From an uncultured Bacteroidales bacterium (lineage in GTDB: Bacteria > Bacteroidota > Bacteroidia > Bacteroidales > F082): a stretch of DNA of 64,000 bases. This document shows, in pieces, positions 41,580 to 63,850 of this stretch; positions within the stretch are counted from its first letter, which is position 1, and each line of letters starts with the position of its first letter. The notes under the pieces were generated by a model. That model worked only from the letters and a program-made list of their open reading frames with translations. It had not been told where the DNA came from and made no database searches. Position numbers and translations under genes: made by a program. Location of the stretch: positions 1-64,000 of the forward strand of contig CAJOIF010000011.1 in NCBI GenBank assembly GCA_905234765.1. Direction: 5' to 3'.

Positions 41580-42287
41580 ATGGAAAGAATCGGACTAACC
41601 TACAATACAGAAAAAGAGCAAATCGTCATCTCGGAATATGGCCGCTGCGTTCAGGAAATGATCAAGAAACTGCCTGACATCGAAGACCGTGGAGAACGCA
41701 CCGAAGCCGCCAAATACATCATCAGCGTCATGGTGCAGATGAACCCGAGCATCAAACAGTCAAGCGACTACGAACACAAGCTTTGGGATCATCTCTACAT
41801 GATTTCGGGGTACAACCTTGACGTGGACAGCCCTTTTGCTCCACCGACACCCATTGAGCAGCAAAGAAAGCCACAACACATTGGTTATCAGAACAATCAT
41901 ATCAAATACGGTCATTATGGCCTATATCTCATCAAGATGATTGAAGCCGCTTCGCAAGAGGAAAACGACGAGATTCGCGAAGCCCTCGCCTACTCCTTGG
42001 CCGCCCAGATGAAACGTAATTACCTGGAATGGAACAAGAGTGTCGTCAACGACCAAGTCATCATCGATGACCTGAAAGCCATCAGCGGTGGAAGACTGGT
42101 CATCACGGACGAAGCCACGCTGAATTCAACAGGGGAAACATATGGCAAGTTCCAGCAACAAGGCAAGCAACAGCAAGCCCAACAAGGCAAAAAGAAGAAA
42201 AAGAAAGTGCCGAACCTGAAGGCCAACATGAACAACCCGAACAACCCCGCATACAAAAAGCGGATGCAAGAACTGGGAAAACTTTAA
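41580..42287 (+). CDS. DUF4290-family protein of unknown function
   Basis: A 235-residue protein without signal peptide or membrane segments. The N-terminal 170 residues (GLTYNTEKEQIVISEYGRC, QNNHIKYGHYGLYLIKMI, QMKRNYLEWNKSVVNDQVII) match, from memory, the Bacteroidota family DUF4290. The C-terminal 50 residues are low-complexity: Gln-rich, then a Lys-run (KKKKKK), then Asn-rich with a basic end, suggesting nucleic-acid contact or a flexible tail. ATG 41580 is used. It sits between the helicase and murA. A palindromic octamer element begins 3 nt after its stop. Confidence 0.75.
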   Translation: MERIGLTYNTEKEQIVISEYGRCVQEMIKKLPDIEDRGERTEAAKYIISVMVQMNPSIKQSSDYEHKLWDHLYMISGYNLDVDSPFAPPTPIEQQRKPQHIGYQNNHIKYGHYGLYLIKMIEAASQEENDEIREALAYSLAAQMKRNYLEWNKSVVNDQVIIDDLKAISGGRLVITDEATLNSTGETYGKFQQQGKQQQAQQGKKKKKKVPNLKANMNNPNNPAYKKRMQELGKL

Positions 42288-42290
42288 TCT

Positions 42291-42366
42291 GACACGAGAC
42301 TGCGAGACTACGGGACTGCGAGACGAGCCAAGCCCCGAAGTCCCGAAGTCCCGAAGTCCCGAAGTC
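42291..42366. repeat. Octamer-built intercistronic palindrome, copy 1 (before murA)
   Basis: The left arm (42291-42325) is a series of units of form GACNNCGN (GACACGA, GACTGCGA, GACTACGG, GACTGCGA). The right arm (42333-42366) is four copies of CCCGAAGT, the inverse orientation of the same unit. It begins 3 nt after the DUF4290 stop and ends 8 nt before the murA ATG. Related elements are at 47214-47294 and 61353-61417. Confidence 0.8.
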
Positions 42367-42374
42367 AAAAAAAT

Positions 42375-43673
42375 ATGGCATCACTGAAGATAAAAGGCGG
42401 CTGCAAGCTGCAAGGCGAAATCGTCCCGCAAGGCGCGAAAAACGAGGCCATGCAGATTCTGTGTGCCTGCCTGCTCACCGACGAGAAAGTCACCATCCAC
42501 AACCTGCCCGACATCCTCGACATCAACAACCTGATTGCCCTCTTGGAAGGCATGGGTGTTATGATTGAGCGGCCCACACGGCACGACATCACGCTGCAAG
42601 CCAAGGAAATCAACTTCAACTATTTCCACCTGACCGCCTACCAAAACACTGCATCAAAACTCCGTGGCAGCGTGATGATGACCGGCCCGATGCTGGCCCG
42701 TTTCGGCAAGGCCTACATGCCCAAGCCTGGTGGCGACAAAATCGGTCGACGCAGGCTCGACACCCACGTCATCGGTTTGCAGAAACTCGGTGCCATCTTT
42801 GATTTCGACACTTACCAAGTTGGGGTGCAACATGGCGGGCTGAAAGGCTGCTACATGCTCCTCGATGAGGCTTCCGTCACGGGTACCGCCAACATCGTCA
42901 TGGCCGCAGTGTTGGCCCAAGGCACCACCACCATCTTCAACGCCGCTTGCGAGCCTTATCTCGTCCAGCTCTGTACCATGCTCAACAACATGGGTGCCGA
43001 CATCAAAGGCGTTGGCTCCAATCTCTTGACCATCAACGGCGTAAGCCGTTTGCACGGCACCGAGCACACTCTTTTGGTCGACATGATCGAGGTGGGTAGT
43101 TTCATCGGCATGGCCGCTATGACGGGCAGCGAGATTACTATCAAGAATGCTGGCATACAGCAACTTGGCATCATTCCCGATGTATTCCGCAAACTCGGCA
43201 TCCAGATGGATTTCCGTGACGATGATATCTTCATTCCCGCGCAAGACCACTATGAGGTGCAGACTTTTATGGATGGCAGCATCCTCACCGTGGCCGACGC
43301 GCCCTGGCCTGGCTTCACGCCCGACCTCATTAGTATCGTGCTAGTGGTGGCCACGCAAGCCAAAGGTACCGTGCTCGTGCACCAGAAGATGTTTGAGAGC
43401 CGCTTGTTCTTCGTCGATAAGCTCATCGACATGGGTGCGCAGATCATCCTCTGCGACCCGCACCGCGCCAACGTCATCGGCCTCGACCACGCACACAACC
43501 TCCGTGGCATCCGCATGGCCTCTCCCGACATCCGCGCCGGCGTTGCCCTGCTCATCGCCGCCCTCTCCGCCGACGGCACCAGCATCATCGACAACAGCGA
43601 CCAAATCGAGCGTGGGTATCAGTATATTGACAAGCGACTGAATGCTTTGGGAGCGGAGATCGAGAGACTGTAA
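42375..43673 (+). CDS. murA: UDP-N-acetylglucosamine 1-carboxyvinyltransferase (Asp-type MurA)
   Basis: A 432-residue cytoplasmic enzyme that transfers enolpyruvate from PEP to UDP-GlcNAc, the first committed step of peptidoglycan synthesis. Family regions: VPQGAKNEAMQIL with the conserved Lys-Asn, the loop MPKPGGDKIGRRRLDTHVIG, and APWPGFTPDLIS. In canonical MurA the loop reads GGCAIG with Cys115; here position 121 is Asp. Asp at this site retains activity in other bacteria and removes the fosfomycin target. Length is normal. No promoter box is visible directly upstream, so it may be read from the DUF4290 promoter through the palindrome. Confidence 0.93.
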   Translation: MASLKIKGGCKLQGEIVPQGAKNEAMQILCACLLTDEKVTIHNLPDILDINNLIALLEGMGVMIERPTRHDITLQAKEINFNYFHLTAYQNTASKLRGSVMMTGPMLARFGKAYMPKPGGDKIGRRRLDTHVIGLQKLGAIFDFDTYQVGVQHGGLKGCYMLLDEASVTGTANIVMAAVLAQGTTTIFNAACEPYLVQLCTMLNNMGADIKGVGSNLLTINGVSRLHGTEHTLLVDMIEVGSFIGMAAMTGSEITIKNAGIQQLGIIPDVFRKLGIQMDFRDDDIFIPAQDHYEVQTFMDGSILTVADAPWPGFTPDLISIVLVVATQAKGTVLVHQKMFESRLFFVDKLIDMGAQIILCDPHRANVIGLDHAHNLRGIRMASPDIRAGVALLIAALSADGTSIIDNSDQIERGYQYIDKRLNALGAEIERL

Positions 43674-45820: not shown

Positions 45821-45975
45821 GCGTCATTGCGAGGTACGAAGCCCCGCCTAAAACGTCATTGCGGGCTTGACCCGCAATCTCCAAAGCAGAAGGATACGTC
45901 TTCGCGCATAGGAGATGGCGGATGTTCCTCCGCCATGACGGTTAAAGCGTTCGGATAGTGTTCCTCGCAATGACG
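45821..45975. repeat. 155-nt nested palindromic repeat between grpE and dnaJ
   Basis: Outer arms CGTCATTGCGAGG (45821-45833) and CCTCGCAATGACG (45963-45975) are a perfect 13-bp inverted repeat. The inner core has CGTCATTGCGGGC and a GACCCGCAATC element at its left, and GGAGATGGCGGAT with CCGCCATGACGG at its right. The same core occurs at 63718-63806 ahead of pyrF. It fills most of the 207-nt gap. Confidence 0.8.
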
Positions 45976-54194: not shown

Positions 54195-54202
54195 TATTTT
54201 TG
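54195..54202 (+). promoter_or_regulatory. -7 box (TATTTTTG) driving the leader of the C10 protease gene
   Basis: An exact TAnnTTTG match; the predicted start near 54209 gives a leader of about 250 nt that contains the structured element at 54306-54396. No -33 TTTG at the ideal distance. Confidence 0.55.
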
Positions 54203-54305
54203 CACCATCAAACCTGAAGTCTAACCATAAACTCTTTTATTAACAGCAAAAGCAATACAACATTTACATAAAGAAATGCATTGACTGATTTCTTGTCTTT
54301 GAAAA

Positions 54306-54396
54306 ATTTGGCGATTTTATCATCACAAAGAAATAAGTGTAATGCTCACGCCTGGCGTGAGTTTAGCTTATTATCGTGTGATGGGGTGCGCCAAAT
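54306..54396 (+). ncRNA. Predicted structured RNA element (91 nt, four nested helices)
   Basis: Four perfect complementary pairs nest in order: ATTTGGCG/CGCCAAAT (54306-54313 with 54389-54396), CATCACA/TGTGATG (54321-54327 with 54377-54383), AATAAG/CTTATT (54332-54337 with 54367-54372), and CTCACGC/GCGTGAG (54345-54351 with 54355-54361, loop CTG). Internal loops are 7x5, 4x4 and 7x5 nt. It sits in the 5' leader of the C10 protease gene, 63 nt upstream of its ATG. It could be a cis-regulatory leader, an independent small RNA, or a dispersed repeat. I do not recognise it as a named family. The rest of the gap 54176-54459 holds only the promoter box. Confidence 0.6.
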
Positions 54397-54459
54397 ACCT
54401 TCAAAGAGCGAGAACAGTTAAGTTCACGCTTCTTTTATTATTAGTCAAACATTTATCTT

Positions 54460-57400
54460 ATGAGAAGGAATTTATTATTGTTTATCATCATCGCTTTGAG
54501 CCTACCCATGCTCGGAGCATCTATTGACGAAGTAACCGCAAAGCAACTCGCCCAAAATTTCTGGAAAGAAAACAACATCATGGGCGTGAGAGGCGACAAA
54601 GTTTTCAAAAAACGGATGGACGAAGCCAAGTTTGTGAATGTTGCTCCGCAATGTGGCTATTCCGAATTCTTTATTTTCAACAATGAAGATGGCAAAGGCT
54701 TCGTCATCATTGCTGCCGATGATTGTGTGACTCCAATTCTTGGCTACTCTTACGATAACAACTTTGTAGCAGAAAACCTTCCACCCAACCTAAAAGACTG
54801 GCTTGACGGCTATGCTGAACAAATACGGATGGCTGTTGAAATGAGAGCAGTGGCCACCGATGAGATTTGCGCTGATTGGGAATGTTTGAGACGGGGAAAA
54901 AATCTGCCGATTAAGTCGGAAAGAGCAGTTGGTGAATTATTAAGTACAAGATGGGGACAAGGGGATTATTATAATGCGCTATGCCCTAGTTTGTTGGGCG
55001 TTCACACACCTACCGGTTGTGTTGCAACTGCAATGGCACAAATAATGAAATACTGGAATTACCCTATTCATGGATACAATTACCATTCATATAATTGTTG
55101 GCCATACGGAACCCAATCAGCCAATTTTGCTGGTACGGAATATCAATGGTCATCCATGCCTAACATCGTAACAAGCCCGAACAATGCAGTAGCCACTTTG
55201 ATGTACCATTGTGGTGTAAGTGTAGAAATGGATTATGGGATTAATGGAAGTAGTGCCCAAATAATTGCCAATGATTATAGTGGGTATTATGAGTATTGTG
55301 CGGAGAATGCACTCACAACTTTTTTTGGGTACGATTCATCTACAATTCAAGGTCTTAAAAGGAACAATTTTTCCGATTCAAACTGGATAAATTTGCTAAA
55401 AACGGACTTAAACAATAATAGGCCTATTTTATATGGTGGACAAGGAAGCGGTGGACATGCTTTTGTTTGCGATGGATATGACAACTCCAATTATTTTCAT
55501 TTTAACTGGGGGTGTAATGGAGATGGACAAGGGGCTAATAGCAATTATGGATATTTCAATATCAACAATCTAACACCACTTGGCAACAACTTCAACAACT
55601 ATCAAGTTGCTATTTTTGGCATCCAACCCGACAGCAATCTACAAAGTTATAATTTAGTCCTATACGATGATGTTCAAATGGTTGGAGATGTCTATGGAAA
55701 CTATGGTTTCGGGCAAAGTATTTCCGCTTATGCCGAAATTCTGAACAATGGAAATTCGACCTTTTCAGGGTATATAGCTGCTGCCGTTTTCGACAATGAC
55801 GGTTATTTCATTGATTTTTTAGGAGGCGGATCAGCAACAATCGAGCCCAATTACTGGATAGGTGGAACGGTTGAGCATGACGGAGGAATCCCTTTCCTTC
55901 CAAGTTATGACTACTTGTATCACACAATTATGTTCTATAGCACAAACGGAGAGAACTGGACGATTGTAAATAGTGGCTACTACAGTAACGATGGGGTTTT
56001 TCAAGTTCTATATAATGGAGAAGACTTGGAAACCAATTCACCAATCACATTCTCAAATGGAGAAGATGATGTGCTTTTCAATGGACAAAGTGCAACAATC
56101 AATGTGAGTGTACTAAACCAAGGCACATCCTCATACAACAATTATATTTGGCTGGCTCTTTTAGATTCGGACGGGTACTACATACAAATTATTGATGACC
56201 TACAAGTGAATATCCCTGTCAATGGTACTATTTCCTTATACTACACGGATATCATTACTGCACCAGAAGGCCAATACTATTTGGCACTGCTATACTATGA
56301 TTCAGAGAACTATGCAAGATATGTTGGATCCGTGTTTTATCCAAGTATTAAGCGCGTATATGTCATCAATTCATATAATATCAACGCAACAGCAAATCCA
56401 TACAACGGAGGGAGCGTAATAGGAGGAGGTAATTATCTAGAAGGTGAGACTTGCACACTAACTGCAACGACCAACAACGGATACACTTTTGTTAATTGGA
56501 CAGAAAACGGAAATCCTGTTTCGACAACCGCTAGTTACACTTTTACGGTGACAGGCAGTAGGAATTTATATGCCAATTTTTTATCACCCACATACACTGT
56601 CAATGTAAGTTCTAACCCTGACGATGGTGGCACTGTCACAAAACAAGGACAAATTGATTATGATTTCGAGAACGGTTTTAGTGGCTGGACACTTATTGAT
56701 GCCGATGGAGACGGCTACAATTGGAGAACAGGAACTGAAGTGATGGGGACAGGTTATGGCCATAATGAGTCAAATGATTTACTTCTTTCACAGAGTTATG
56801 ATAATGAGTATGGTGTATTGTATCCCGACAACTATCTTGTTTCTCCCCTAGTTGATTTAGGAGGCACTATCAGTTTTTGGGCTTGCGCCCAAGATAACGC
56901 ATATCCTTCAGAGCATTTCGGCGTGGCTGTTTCAACAACGAGTAATACTAATGCCAATAGTTTCACGACAATTCAAGAATGGACTATGACTGCAAAAGGC
57001 AGAGGCCGTCATTCCAACCATTCACGAGATGGAATTAGTAAAGCACAAGGCAATTGGTATTTATACACCGTTGACTTAAGCGCGTATTTAGGACAAACCG
57101 GATATATTGCCATTCGTCATTTTAATTGTAGTGACATGTTCTATTTGGATATTGATGATGTTTCTATCAATACTACTGGAGATAATACTTATTATCAAGG
57201 CCAAACTTGTACGGTGAGTGCCACAGCCAACAGCGGTTACACTTTTGTAAATTGGACAGAAAACGGAACACAAGTCTCCACCAATGCCAATTATACTTTT
57301 ACGGTAACTGGAAACAGGAATTTGGTGGCCAATTTCCAAGCCCAATCGCAGCAATACACAGTTAGTGTGTCGGCCAGCCCGAGCAACGGCGGCAGCGTGT

Positions 57401-58710
57401 CGGGTGGAGGCACTTACAATCAAGGTGCTTCTTGCACCGTTCATGCCACAGCCAACAGCGGTTACTCCTTCGTTAATTGGACGGAAAACGGCACACAAGT
57501 TTCCACCAATGCCAACTACACTTTCACGGTAAATGGAAACAGAAACTTGGTAGCCAACTTCCAAGCCCAACCACAGCAATACACTATTAACGTGTCAGCC
57601 AGTCCGAGCAACAGTGGCAATGTAACAGGCGGCGGAACCTATCAACAAGGCCAAACTTGCACGGTGAGTGCCACAGCCAACAACGGTTATACTTTCGTCA
57701 ATTGGACAGAAAATGGAACACAAGTTTCCACCAATGCCAATTATAGTTTTACAGTAACTAACAATAGAAACTTGGTCGCCCATTTCACAACACAAAACTA
57801 TGTCATCACAGCCATGGCCGACCCAACGGCTGGTGGCACCGTGACAGGAAGTGGAGGATACAACTATGGAGAAAGTTGCACACTAACCGCCACTGCCAAT
57901 GCTGGCTATACATTCACCAACTGGACCAAAAACGGCACCCAAGTATCTACAAACCCGACCTATACTTTCACCGTAACAGAATCGGCGACATATATTGCTC
58001 ATTTCTCCGCTCAAAGCTATGCTATCACAACTGCATCATCGCCTTCCAATGGCGGCACGACTACGGGCGGAGGCTCATACAACTATGGGCAAACTTGCAC
58101 CGTCACAGCATCGGCAGCAAACGGTTATGCCTTTACCAACTGGACGGAAAACGGCACACAGGTATCCACCAATGCCAACTATAGTTTTACAGTAACAAGC
58201 AACCGAAACTTGGTGGCCAACTTTGCGCAAAGTACACATACCATTCAAGCAACTGCAGGGGCGAATGGCATCATCACTCCATCAGGCTCAATCACGGTGG
58301 CGCATGGTGCGAACCAATCTTTTGCGATGATTCCAGATGAAGGTTACGAAGTCCAAGATGTCTATATCGATGGCAATTCTGTCGGAGCAATGACTTCTTA
58401 CACCTTTACCAATGTGACCGCAGACCATTATATTCATGTTACTTTTGTTCACGTAGACGGTGTAGGGGAAAACAACAACATTTCTGCTGTCGTTTATCCA
58501 AATCCGACCACTGGAATTGTGAACATCAAATGTAGCGAAGCAACACAAGTCAATGTCTACAATGTTTTTGGCCAATTACTATTAAGGCAAACCACCAATG
58601 GCAATGAACAAGAAACCATTGACATTAGCCATCTTCCAAACGGTCTCTACCTAATGCAATTGATAGGACAAAGAGGCACAGTCACAAAACCCGTCATCAA
58701 GGTTCAATAA
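54460..58710 (+). CDS. C10 (streptopain/PrtT-type) cysteine protease with B-repeats and T9SS domain
   Basis: A 1416-residue secreted protein. Signal peptide (MRRNLLLFIIIALSLPMLGA), a Spi-type prodomain (about 20-130), then a C10 peptidase with Cys187 in TGCVATAMAQIMKYW and His333 in GGHAFVCDGYD, and the NWGCNGDG element after it. Beta-sandwich segments follow (about 390-630). From about residue 640 there are six to seven copies of a 70-residue divergent InlB B-type repeat (GYTFVNWTENGTQVSTNANY, each repeated with minor change). A Cleaved-adhesin-like jelly-roll (about 730-905) is nested inside the second repeat. The T9SS domain begins near 1344 (AVVYPNPTTG). The gene has a long structured leader and is followed by a terminator. 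Confidence 0.86.
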   Translation: MRRNLLLFIIIALSLPMLGASIDEVTAKQLAQNFWKENNIMGVRGDKVFKKRMDEAKFVNVAPQCGYSEFFIFNNEDGKGFVIIAADDCVTPILGYSYDNNFVAENLPPNLKDWLDGYAEQIRMAVEMRAVATDEICADWECLRRGKNLPIKSERAVGELLSTRWGQGDYYNALCPSLLGVHTPTGCVATAMAQIMKYWNYPIHGYNYHSYNCWPYGTQSANFAGTEYQWSSMPNIVTSPNNAVATLMYHCGVSVEMDYGINGSSAQIIANDYSGYYEYCAENALTTFFGYDSSTIQGLKRNNFSDSNWINLLKTDLNNNRPILYGGQGSGGHAFVCDGYDNSNYFHFNWGCNGDGQGANSNYGYFNINNLTPLGNNFNNYQVAIFGIQPDSNLQSYNLVLYDDVQMVGDVYGNYGFGQSISAYAEILNNGNSTFSGYIAAAVFDNDGYFIDFLGGGSATIEPNYWIGGTVEHDGGIPFLPSYDYLYHTIMFYSTNGENWTIVNSGYYSNDGVFQVLYNGEDLETNSPITFSNGEDDVLFNGQSATINVSVLNQGTSSYNNYIWLALLDSDGYYIQIIDDLQVNIPVNGTISLYYTDIITAPEGQYYLALLYYDSENYARYVGSVFYPSIKRVYVINSYNINATANPYNGGSVIGGGNYLEGETCTLTATTNNGYTFVNWTENGNPVSTTASYTFTVTGSRNLYANFLSPTYTVNVSSNPDDGGTVTKQGQIDYDFENGFSGWTLIDADGDGYNWRTGTEVMGTGYGHNESNDLLLSQSYDNEYGVLYPDNYLVSPLVDLGGTISFWACAQDNAYPSEHFGVAVSTTSNTNANSFTTIQEWTMTAKGRGRHSNHSRDGISKAQGNWYLYTVDLSAYLGQTGYIAIRHFNCSDMFYLDIDDVSINTTGDNTYYQGQTCTVSATANSGYTFVNWTENGTQVSTNANYTFTVTGNRNLVANFQAQSQQYTVSVSASPSNGGSVSGGGTYNQGASCTVHATANSGYSFVNWTENGTQVSTNANYTFTVNGNRNLVANFQAQPQQYTINVSASPSNSGNVTGGGTYQQGQTCTVSATANNGYTFVNWTENGTQVSTNANYSFTVTNNRNLVAHFTTQNYVITAMADPTAGGTVTGSGGYNYGESCTLTATANAGYTFTNWTKNGTQVSTNPTYTFTVTESATYIAHFSAQSYAITTASSPSNGGTTTGGGSYNYGQTCTVTASAANGYAFTNWTENGTQVSTNANYSFTVTSNRNLVANFAQSTHTIQATAGANGIITPSGSITVAHGANQSFAMIPDEGYEVQDVYIDGNSVGAMTSYTFTNVTADHYIHVTFVHVDGVGENNNISAVVYPNPTTGIVNIKCSEATQVNVYNVFGQLLLRQTTNGNEQETIDISHLPNGLYLMQLIGQRGTVTKPVIKVQ

Positions 58711-63697: not shown

Positions 63698-63717
63698 CAC
63701 TACACCTCACCCCTCGC

Positions 63718-63806
63718 CGTCATTGCGGGCTCGACCCGCAATCCCCTGAGCGAAAAGGATACTCCTTCGCGCATGGGAGATGGCGGATCCTTGTCCGCCA
63801 TGACGG
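63718..63806. repeat. 89-nt palindromic repeat between prfA and pyrF
   Basis: It matches the inner core of the grpE-dnaJ repeat: CGTCATTGCGGGCT with GACCCGCAATC at the left, GGAGATGGCGGAT and CCGCCATGACGG at the right, with a similar middle (AAGGATAC ... CTTCGCGCAT). The ends GTCATTGCGG and CCGCCATGAC are near-inverted. It lies between stop and start, as the other copy does. Confidence 0.8.
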
Positions 63807-63850
63807 CAAGAAGTCGAAGTTTCTTTCCTAATGTAACAAATACAAATACT

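Follow-up and report, generated by a model that had tools for sequence, protein, structure and literature searches.

What is a long, heavily paired hairpin doing in the leader of a secreted protease gene? The window, i.e. the whole stretch of DNA analysed here, comprises positions 1-64,000 (forward strand) of contig CAJOIF010000011.1 from an uncultured Bacteroidales bacterium (F082; assembly GCA_905234765.1). The original prediction placed a candidate structured RNA at 54306-54396, and offered that it could be a cis-regulatory element, an independent small RNA or a dispersed structured repeat. The first of these options was retained, in a dispersed form, and the independent small RNA and the purely mobile repeat are both disfavoured. 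We consider it probable that the element is a cis-acting 5' leader RNA, functioning as a transcription attenuator, and that it belongs to an apparently undescribed family dispersed through the Bacteroidota.

The hairpin in the window

The 91 nt at 54306-54396 are predicted to fold into a single nested hairpin with four helices and an apical loop of 3 nt, the loop being exactly as foreseen. Its minimum free energy is -39.3 kcal/mol; 200 dinucleotide shuffles average -19.98 (z = -6.36), and not one of them folds as well. The nested four-helix architecture thus stood. The helices, said to be perfect and of 8, 7, 6 and 7 pairs, count 8, 8, 9 and 8 pairs in the fold, the one of 9 pairs being bulged. 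Heavy pairing was also rightly noticed, the figure of 56 paired nucleotides out of 91 being too low (66/91). The limits were too short, as the fold extends further at either end, to about 54281-54423, with z = -8.0 for the region 54278-54426 on the plus strand. This composite hairpin folds better on the plus strand (-60.7 kcal/mol, z = -8.0) than on the minus strand (-47.0 kcal/mol, z = -6.3). The covariance model R1, described below, matches the window at 54283-54436 (83.5 bits, E 5e-17). An antisense copy in the window was considered and is unlikely, the minus-strand model match reaching 23 bits versus the plus-strand score just given.

Folding energy alone does not single out the element in the window. 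Apart from the element itself, 8 positions of 91 nt on the plus strand have a similar energy (scan with a step of 5), and so do at least 40 on the minus strand, of which the best 40 all lie at -40.8 or lower. Relatives were therefore needed, and the case for the element rests on conservation, not on energy. Among the strongest hairpins of the window is also a different palindromic repeat present in two copies, at 45845-45950 and 63700-63815 (GTCATTGCGGGCTTGACCCGCAATC ... GGAGATGGCGGA ... CCGCCATGACGG and a variant). At 42270-42385, short repeated units (GAAGTCCC-like) fold against an upstream stretch of the GACTGCGAGACT type.

The coordinates are collected in Table 1. The leader of about 250 nt, running from a promoter box (54195-54202) to the ATG (54460) of a large secreted protease of 1416 aa, was correctly described from the start. 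The box is of the type TAnnTTTG, which we take to be the Bacteroidota promoter consensus. The protease combines a Spi inhibitor prodomain, a Peptidase_C10 domain, a cleaved adhesin domain, repeats and a T9SS sorting tail. Its gene is probably regulated by the leader.

Table 1. Positions of the leader features in the window, and members of one subclass of the family
Feature	Position	Strand	Basis or remark
TAnnTTTG (-7 type) promoter box TATTTTTG	54195..54202	+	sequence; 88 nt ahead of the modelled element
5' part of leader	54209..54280	+	start inferred about 7 nt past the TAnnTTTG box
Whole composite hairpin, including the outer, putative antiterminator helix	54281..54423	+	fold z = -8.0; R1 match
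Outer helix and P0, 5' strand	54281..54303	+	pairs with 54400-54423
P1 5' strand ATTTGGCG	54306..54313	+	pairs with 54389-54396
P2/P3 5' strands, most variable helices	54320..54338	+	pair with 54366-54384
P4 apical hairpin GCTCACGC-CTG-GCGTGAGT	54344..54362	+	fold and family alignment
P1 3' strand CGCCAAAT and ACC internal loop	54389..54399	+	loose GG(N)...ACC pattern in the family
Terminator-like hairpin GCGAGAAC-AGTTAA-GTTCACGC, then TTCTTTT	54408..54436 (stem-loop 54408-54429)	+	fold
Secreted C10 protease gene	54460..58710	+	1416 aa; downstream gene of the leader
AGCGTTTGC(T/A)ATTTATTC subclass			L216, L219, L222, L225, L233, L236, L239, L242, L244, L248, L250, L255, L256, L258-L260, L304

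Relatives and spread of the element

With the neighbouring SecDF protein as query, 80 loci were collected, mostly from uncultured Bacteroidales and many of them from rumen and other animal guts. Four of these loci (L034, L014, L058 and L016) contain a homologous leader in which compensatory changes are visible by eye. The element precedes the C10 gene in L014, L058 and L016; in L034 it precedes the gene of another secreted protein, the C10 gene being located further on. Seven loci (L001, L020, L021, L022, L029, L030 and L033) have a C10 gene after SecDF and no element in the preceding 330 nt, judged by inspection and by the lack of a significant blastn match. C10 genes occur with and without the element, which is therefore an optional module. 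Nor is it confined to C10 protease genes.

A DNA search of 173 genomes of the window's taxonomic family gave matches in 29, at no more than four places in each. The covariance model R1, built from five similar members and then used to align others, detected the element in at least 64 of 173 genomes of the same taxonomic family (E 1e-3). A second model, R2, was built from 100 members and detected it in at least 134 of 393 genomes sampled from the order (E 1e-5) and at least 35 of 395 sampled from the phylum (E 1e-6); since seven candidates were scored per genome, these counts are lower bounds. The same overall plan was kept in the 20 phylum-level matches that were inspected. Eight genomes, chosen for having matches and searched in depth, contain 9-20 copies each. 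Several copies are found within a few hundred bases of contig ends (e.g. G228:C4, G498:C32, G547:C56 and G413:C59), which may reflect assembly breaks at near-identical repeats.

Gene contexts were compiled for 113 R1 and 60 R2 matches, giving 174 members with the window copy; genes were called with a simple ORF picker and some starts are wrong. From 5' to 3', the family plan consists of P0, a GAAA/ACC internal loop, P1, an ATTTT/GGGT internal loop, a variable P2, an AATAAGT/ACTTATT region, a CTCACGC/GCGTGAG apical hairpin and a terminator hairpin. The sequence of P1 differs across the family (TTTGGCG, CTGGTA, CTGAGA, CCTAGG). Of the 174 members, 145 have a loose GG(N)...ACC pattern in their 3' half, a count made without a shuffled control. 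According to a simple scan, a small AGC/GCT-type hairpin lies just 5' of P0 in 79 members and is absent in 95.

Conservation of the structure

It had been proposed to build a covariance model from Bacteroidales homologues, to look for covariation and to check the genomic context of the hits. Homologues were found, and compensatory changes are present in them. The model-fitted alignment contains 100 of 114 contexts (99 distinct rows). In this alignment 94.1% of the cells form standard pairs, and both sides change in 45 of 47 pairs. Double-change cells number 1020; shuffles give 286 +/- 16, and sliding the partners by 1-3 columns gives no more than 220. The eight pairs of P2 are kept at 97.2% over the 99 distinct rows, and seven of them show all four Watson-Crick types. 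For P1, both partners of all eight pairs vary across the wider family.

As an independent check, the window's own predicted structure was scored on a MAFFT alignment made from sequence only, comprising the window and seven close relatives. Ten of the 56 pairs are double-changed versus 5.4 +/- 1.5 in shuffles, 1 of 500 shuffles being as high, and at most four when slid. Both sides change in 7 of the 17 P2/P3 pairs, and P1 is invariant in these eight rows. The outer helix/P0 strand is 81.5% paired, and UG, UA and CG variants occur in its outer section; in six of the eight rows four P0 pairs are broken, apparently owing to register shifts. The number of further pair types in this alignment is no higher than expected by chance, 144 of 500 shuffles reaching it. 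A diverse MAFFT alignment of 25 sequences misaligned P2 and P0, and its RNAalifold consensus was poor (17 pairs: P1, P4 and two more). Taken together, the hairpin is a real and conserved RNA structure.

Predicted terminator and competing pairing

The last 40 nt in the window fold at -10.1 kcal/mol into a terminator-like hairpin, the 5' arm and loop of which overlap the outer helix of the window fold. The terminator hairpin and its T-run belong to the family model, helices 7 and 8 of the alignment being paired at 93.2% and 91.8%. A generic consensus terminator scan left the window copy unflagged. The U-tract of this copy is interrupted (TTCTTTT) and its terminator is weaker than that of the family.

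The balance between the two pairings was obtained from an equilibrium calculation on predicted energies, with related sequences. For 114 leaders with their natural 5' part, the median predicted terminator probability is 0.15; it rises to 0.57 if this part is dinucleotide-shuffled and to 0.77 without it. The natural value falls short of the shuffled mean in 85 of these leaders and is not lowered in the other 29. For the window copy the corresponding values are 0.0006, a mean of 0.72 (the shuffled part here extending to 54294 and so taking in the outer helix's 5' strand as well as the 5' leader) and 0.84. Because shuffling or removal of the natural 5' leader raises the terminator probability, this leader is predicted to be an antiterminator. 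As a separate observation in the L148-L163 class, an upstream GCGTGAAA(N)GAAAC stretch could pair with the terminator 3' arm TTTCACGC, making a second possible antiterminator.

These features suggest the following scheme. RNA polymerase would start at the TAnnTTTG promoter and transcribe the 5' leader, followed by the composite hairpin P0-P4 with its conserved internal loops, and would then meet an intrinsic terminator shortly before the start codon. Pairing of the 5' leader strand with the 5' arm and loop of the terminator, as the outer helix, would exclude the terminator. The RNA could thus adopt two competing states, one leading to termination and one to read-through, and the internal loops of the hairpin may be the place where a ligand or a protein tips the balance. 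What sequence and computation show is the fold with its covarying pairs, a terminator-like hairpin, an upstream promoter box, the position in cis, the spread through genomes and the classes of target gene. That termination takes place, and that the two states serve as a switch, we infer.

The signal could also be translation itself. A minimal ORF, consisting of an ATG, at most two further codons and a stop, is present in 25 of 49 leader clusters versus 10.7 +/- 2.8 in shuffles, of which 0 of 200 were as high. The ATG per se is not in excess in these clusters (33 vs 33.5 in shuffles). Recurrent forms are ATG TAG, ATG CAA TAA, ATG GAA TAA and ATG AAC GAT TGA. In such a sub-form of the attenuator, the state of the ribosome on the start-stop ORF would choose between terminator and antiterminator. 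We consider this sub-form rather unlikely, as 24 of the 49 leader clusters, including that of the window, are without a minimal ORF. None was found in the window copy within the 70 nt scanned past the box, and where present the small ORF is located well upstream of the antiterminator strand, so that direct shielding by a ribosome is not evident.

A long stable hairpin with recurring internal loops in a 5' leader might alternatively act after transcription, as an RNase III or stability hairpin or as a protein-binding site, with no role in termination. This is improbable in our opinion, given that the terminator hairpin lies within the conserved unit and that the 5' leader is, by prediction, tuned against it.

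Arrangement relative to promoters and genes

A TAnnTTTG box is located 46-160 nt upstream of the element in 143 of the 174 members versus 17.8 +/- 4.3 in shuffles, the other 31 being without a box in this scanned interval. The gap between terminator and gene contains a promoter box in 6 of 137 cases versus 5.2 in mononucleotide shuffles, i.e. no excess. The next downstream gene shares the strand of the element in 108 of 114 contexts (window included) and in 53 of 59, or 161 of 173 in total. This answers the proposed check of genomic context in favour of a cis arrangement. The next gene is on the opposite strand in 12 of the 173, some of which are perhaps errors of the ORF picker. Upstream genes are distributed 77:35 and 33:26 by strand, which contrasts with the downstream same-strand bias. 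Among the 161 same-strand copies, 137 have the start codon 10-160 nt after the U-tract, and in 27 of these 137 the gap is 60-66 nt.

Could the element be a free-standing small RNA that acts in trans, equipped with a promoter and terminator of its own and located before genes by chance? The promoter box and the terminator hairpin do flank it, and release as a product of 200-250 nt would be possible. A free small RNA gene would need none of the arrangement just described, neither the same-strand next gene at a limited distance nor the lack of promoter excess in the gap, and we judge this explanation to be quite unlikely. Because the next gene is on the same strand, a promoter box is found upstream and no promoter excess is seen in the gap, the element is most likely a cis leader rather than a free small RNA.

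Copies of the family diverge overall, with compensation, and six pairs of identical elements exist among the 174 members. In the pairs L165/L166 and L172/L173, the element is identical, the genomes are different and so are the downstream genes, which implies that leaders or genes have been exchanged. L172 and L173 have their upstream gene in common, as would be seen after a swap of the gene that follows the leader. Conservation of the leader extends, in one subclass, as far as the start codon, with unrelated genes following. Part of the dispersal of the family is thus recent copying. Such copying, the 9-20 copies in each of the eight chosen genomes and the nearly palindromic shape would also suit an accidentally transcribed mobile hairpin (MITE, REP or IS200/IS605-type palindrome). 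We consider this very improbable. The sequence of P2, and even that of P1, is replaced from copy to copy with the pairing restored, unexpectedly for a recent DNA repeat, and in the window copy the transcribed strand folds better than its complement. Most copies keep the same orientation and promoter position, so that insertion is not orientation-independent, and no transposase was noticed by eye as a recurring upstream neighbour.

Two other candidates were considered. As to a phage carrier, a 17-mer scan of viral contigs gave four loci, three of them inside a long ORF, and the family model matches none; this test, one exact-pattern scan and hence limited, gives no sign of a carrier. An att- or integron-like hairpin, considered for the long imperfect stem and the similar size of the upstream ORFs, was set aside, the upstream genes being varied by eye.

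One group of neighbours deserves mention. In 12 contexts (L193, L200, L203-L205, L207, L208, L214, L223, L224, L231 and L238) the element lies just 3' of the gene for a related protein, mostly of 340-470 aa, with the pattern STSGI...KV.RQGKWFILKGL and kinase-like by eye. Small proteins of unknown function often come next in this set.

Downstream genes

The proteins encoded downstream form 103 groups by a crude 4-mer rule. By an equally crude hydropathy rule, 89 of 155 look exported; for the remaining ORFs of these loci the count is 166 of 655 (odds ratio 4.0). In the first batch of 114 contexts, a Pfam scan covered the 104 downstream proteins whose gene lies on the same strand and no more than 450 nt away. 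It gave N6_N4_Mtase (8), N6_Mtase (6) and Peptidase_C10 (7), plus other restriction-modification domains. Six downstream proteins are MADS2-type methyltransferases according to NCBIfam, and methyltransferases were the commonest PADLOC matches. When 20 proteins picked as likely restriction-modification or unknown were scanned singly, 11 proved to be DNA methyltransferases and 3 more had nuclease/HSDR domains. For 104 control ORFs of the same loci, no DNA methylase was present among the best 25 of 91 families, one ResIII and two Peptidase_C10 being found; this single control set has fewer residues (24592 vs 36790 in the downstream proteins), and single methylases are possible outside the 25 families. 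Some downstream genes are mutual orthologues, and the target counts are accordingly not independent. Overall, exported proteins are over-represented among the targets, and restriction-modification genes are numerous. The targets share no single pathway that would suggest a ligand.

A subclass with a AGCGTTTGC(T/A)ATTTATTC-type sequence before P0 comprises 17 of the 174 members (Table 1). Single scans confirmed 9 of its 17 downstream proteins as DNA methylases; those of L225, L236 and L255 begin like the confirmed ones, and those of L244, L250, L260 and L304 look unlike restriction-modification genes. In larger and more distant Bacteroidota genomes (L299, L300, L301, L305, L308, L312 and L313), the element is located 220-375 nt before the gene of a similar protein of about 700-760 aa.

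We tentatively put forward, as a possibility, that these leaders form a phylum-wide system in which one attenuator architecture is placed before about 100 unrelated gene groups (a crude figure); restriction-modification/defence genes and exported proteins would then respond to a common signal, perhaps the translation state read via the minimal ORF. One leader architecture would then link restriction-modification and defence genes with exported proteins such as C10 proteases, and the recurring start-stop ORF would provide a specific proposal for how the leaders sense the cell.

Comparison with known RNAs and regulatory systems

The element had not been assigned to a named RNA family, in agreement with Rfam 15: at the gathering score, no family matches the window element or the elements in 40 other member loci. 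The only matches in the window and these 40 loci are three tRNAs and one unrelated DUF805b RNA, all away from the elements. Sub-threshold Rfam matches of the window element in permissive scans (snoRNAs, miRNAs, MicX) were taken as chance. A large regulatory RNA family of one of the dominant gut and rumen phyla thus appears to be absent from Rfam. No description of the family was found in the openly accessible papers searched, PMC2864571, PMC8040213 and PMC7366714 among them.

According to the accessible text of Weinberg et al. 2010 (PMC2864571), the Bacteroidetes motifs described there include Bacteroidales-1 (RF01693), Bacteroides-1 (RF01694), Flavo-1 (RF01705) and 6S-Flavo (RF01685). Like the present family, they are putative structured RNAs detected in this phylum by comparative analysis. 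They differ from it in that Rfam 15 gives no match to our elements; GUCCY-hairpin, without an Rfam entry, falls outside this comparison (PMC2864571, same text). The human-microbiome survey candidates HMP2_4205, HMP2_1065 and HMP2_1032 are, in the accessible part of PMC8040213, palindromic, mostly or wholly from Bacteroidetes and with predicted terminators, and they resemble the family in these three respects. Their reported neighbours (TPR, RuvA, TonB) differ from the main targets of the family, a comparison made by description only, and an overlap with one subclass is possible judging from that portion of the source (PMC8040213).

A further close parallel is with transcription attenuators of the riboswitch type or protein-dependent type. 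The family shares with them a promoter, a structured leader, a terminator hairpin before the start codon and, by prediction, an overlapping alternative pairing. It differs in having one long composite hairpin instead of a branched aptamer, very diverse targets and no Rfam match. The put RNA, EAR and the LoaP- and UpxY-type leaders act on distal terminators via polymerase or NusG-like proteins. They are likewise leader structures acting on termination, whereas in the family described here the terminator belongs to the element itself. As a putative attenuator, the element is of a known kind; the family, its two target classes and the start-stop ORF appear to be new.
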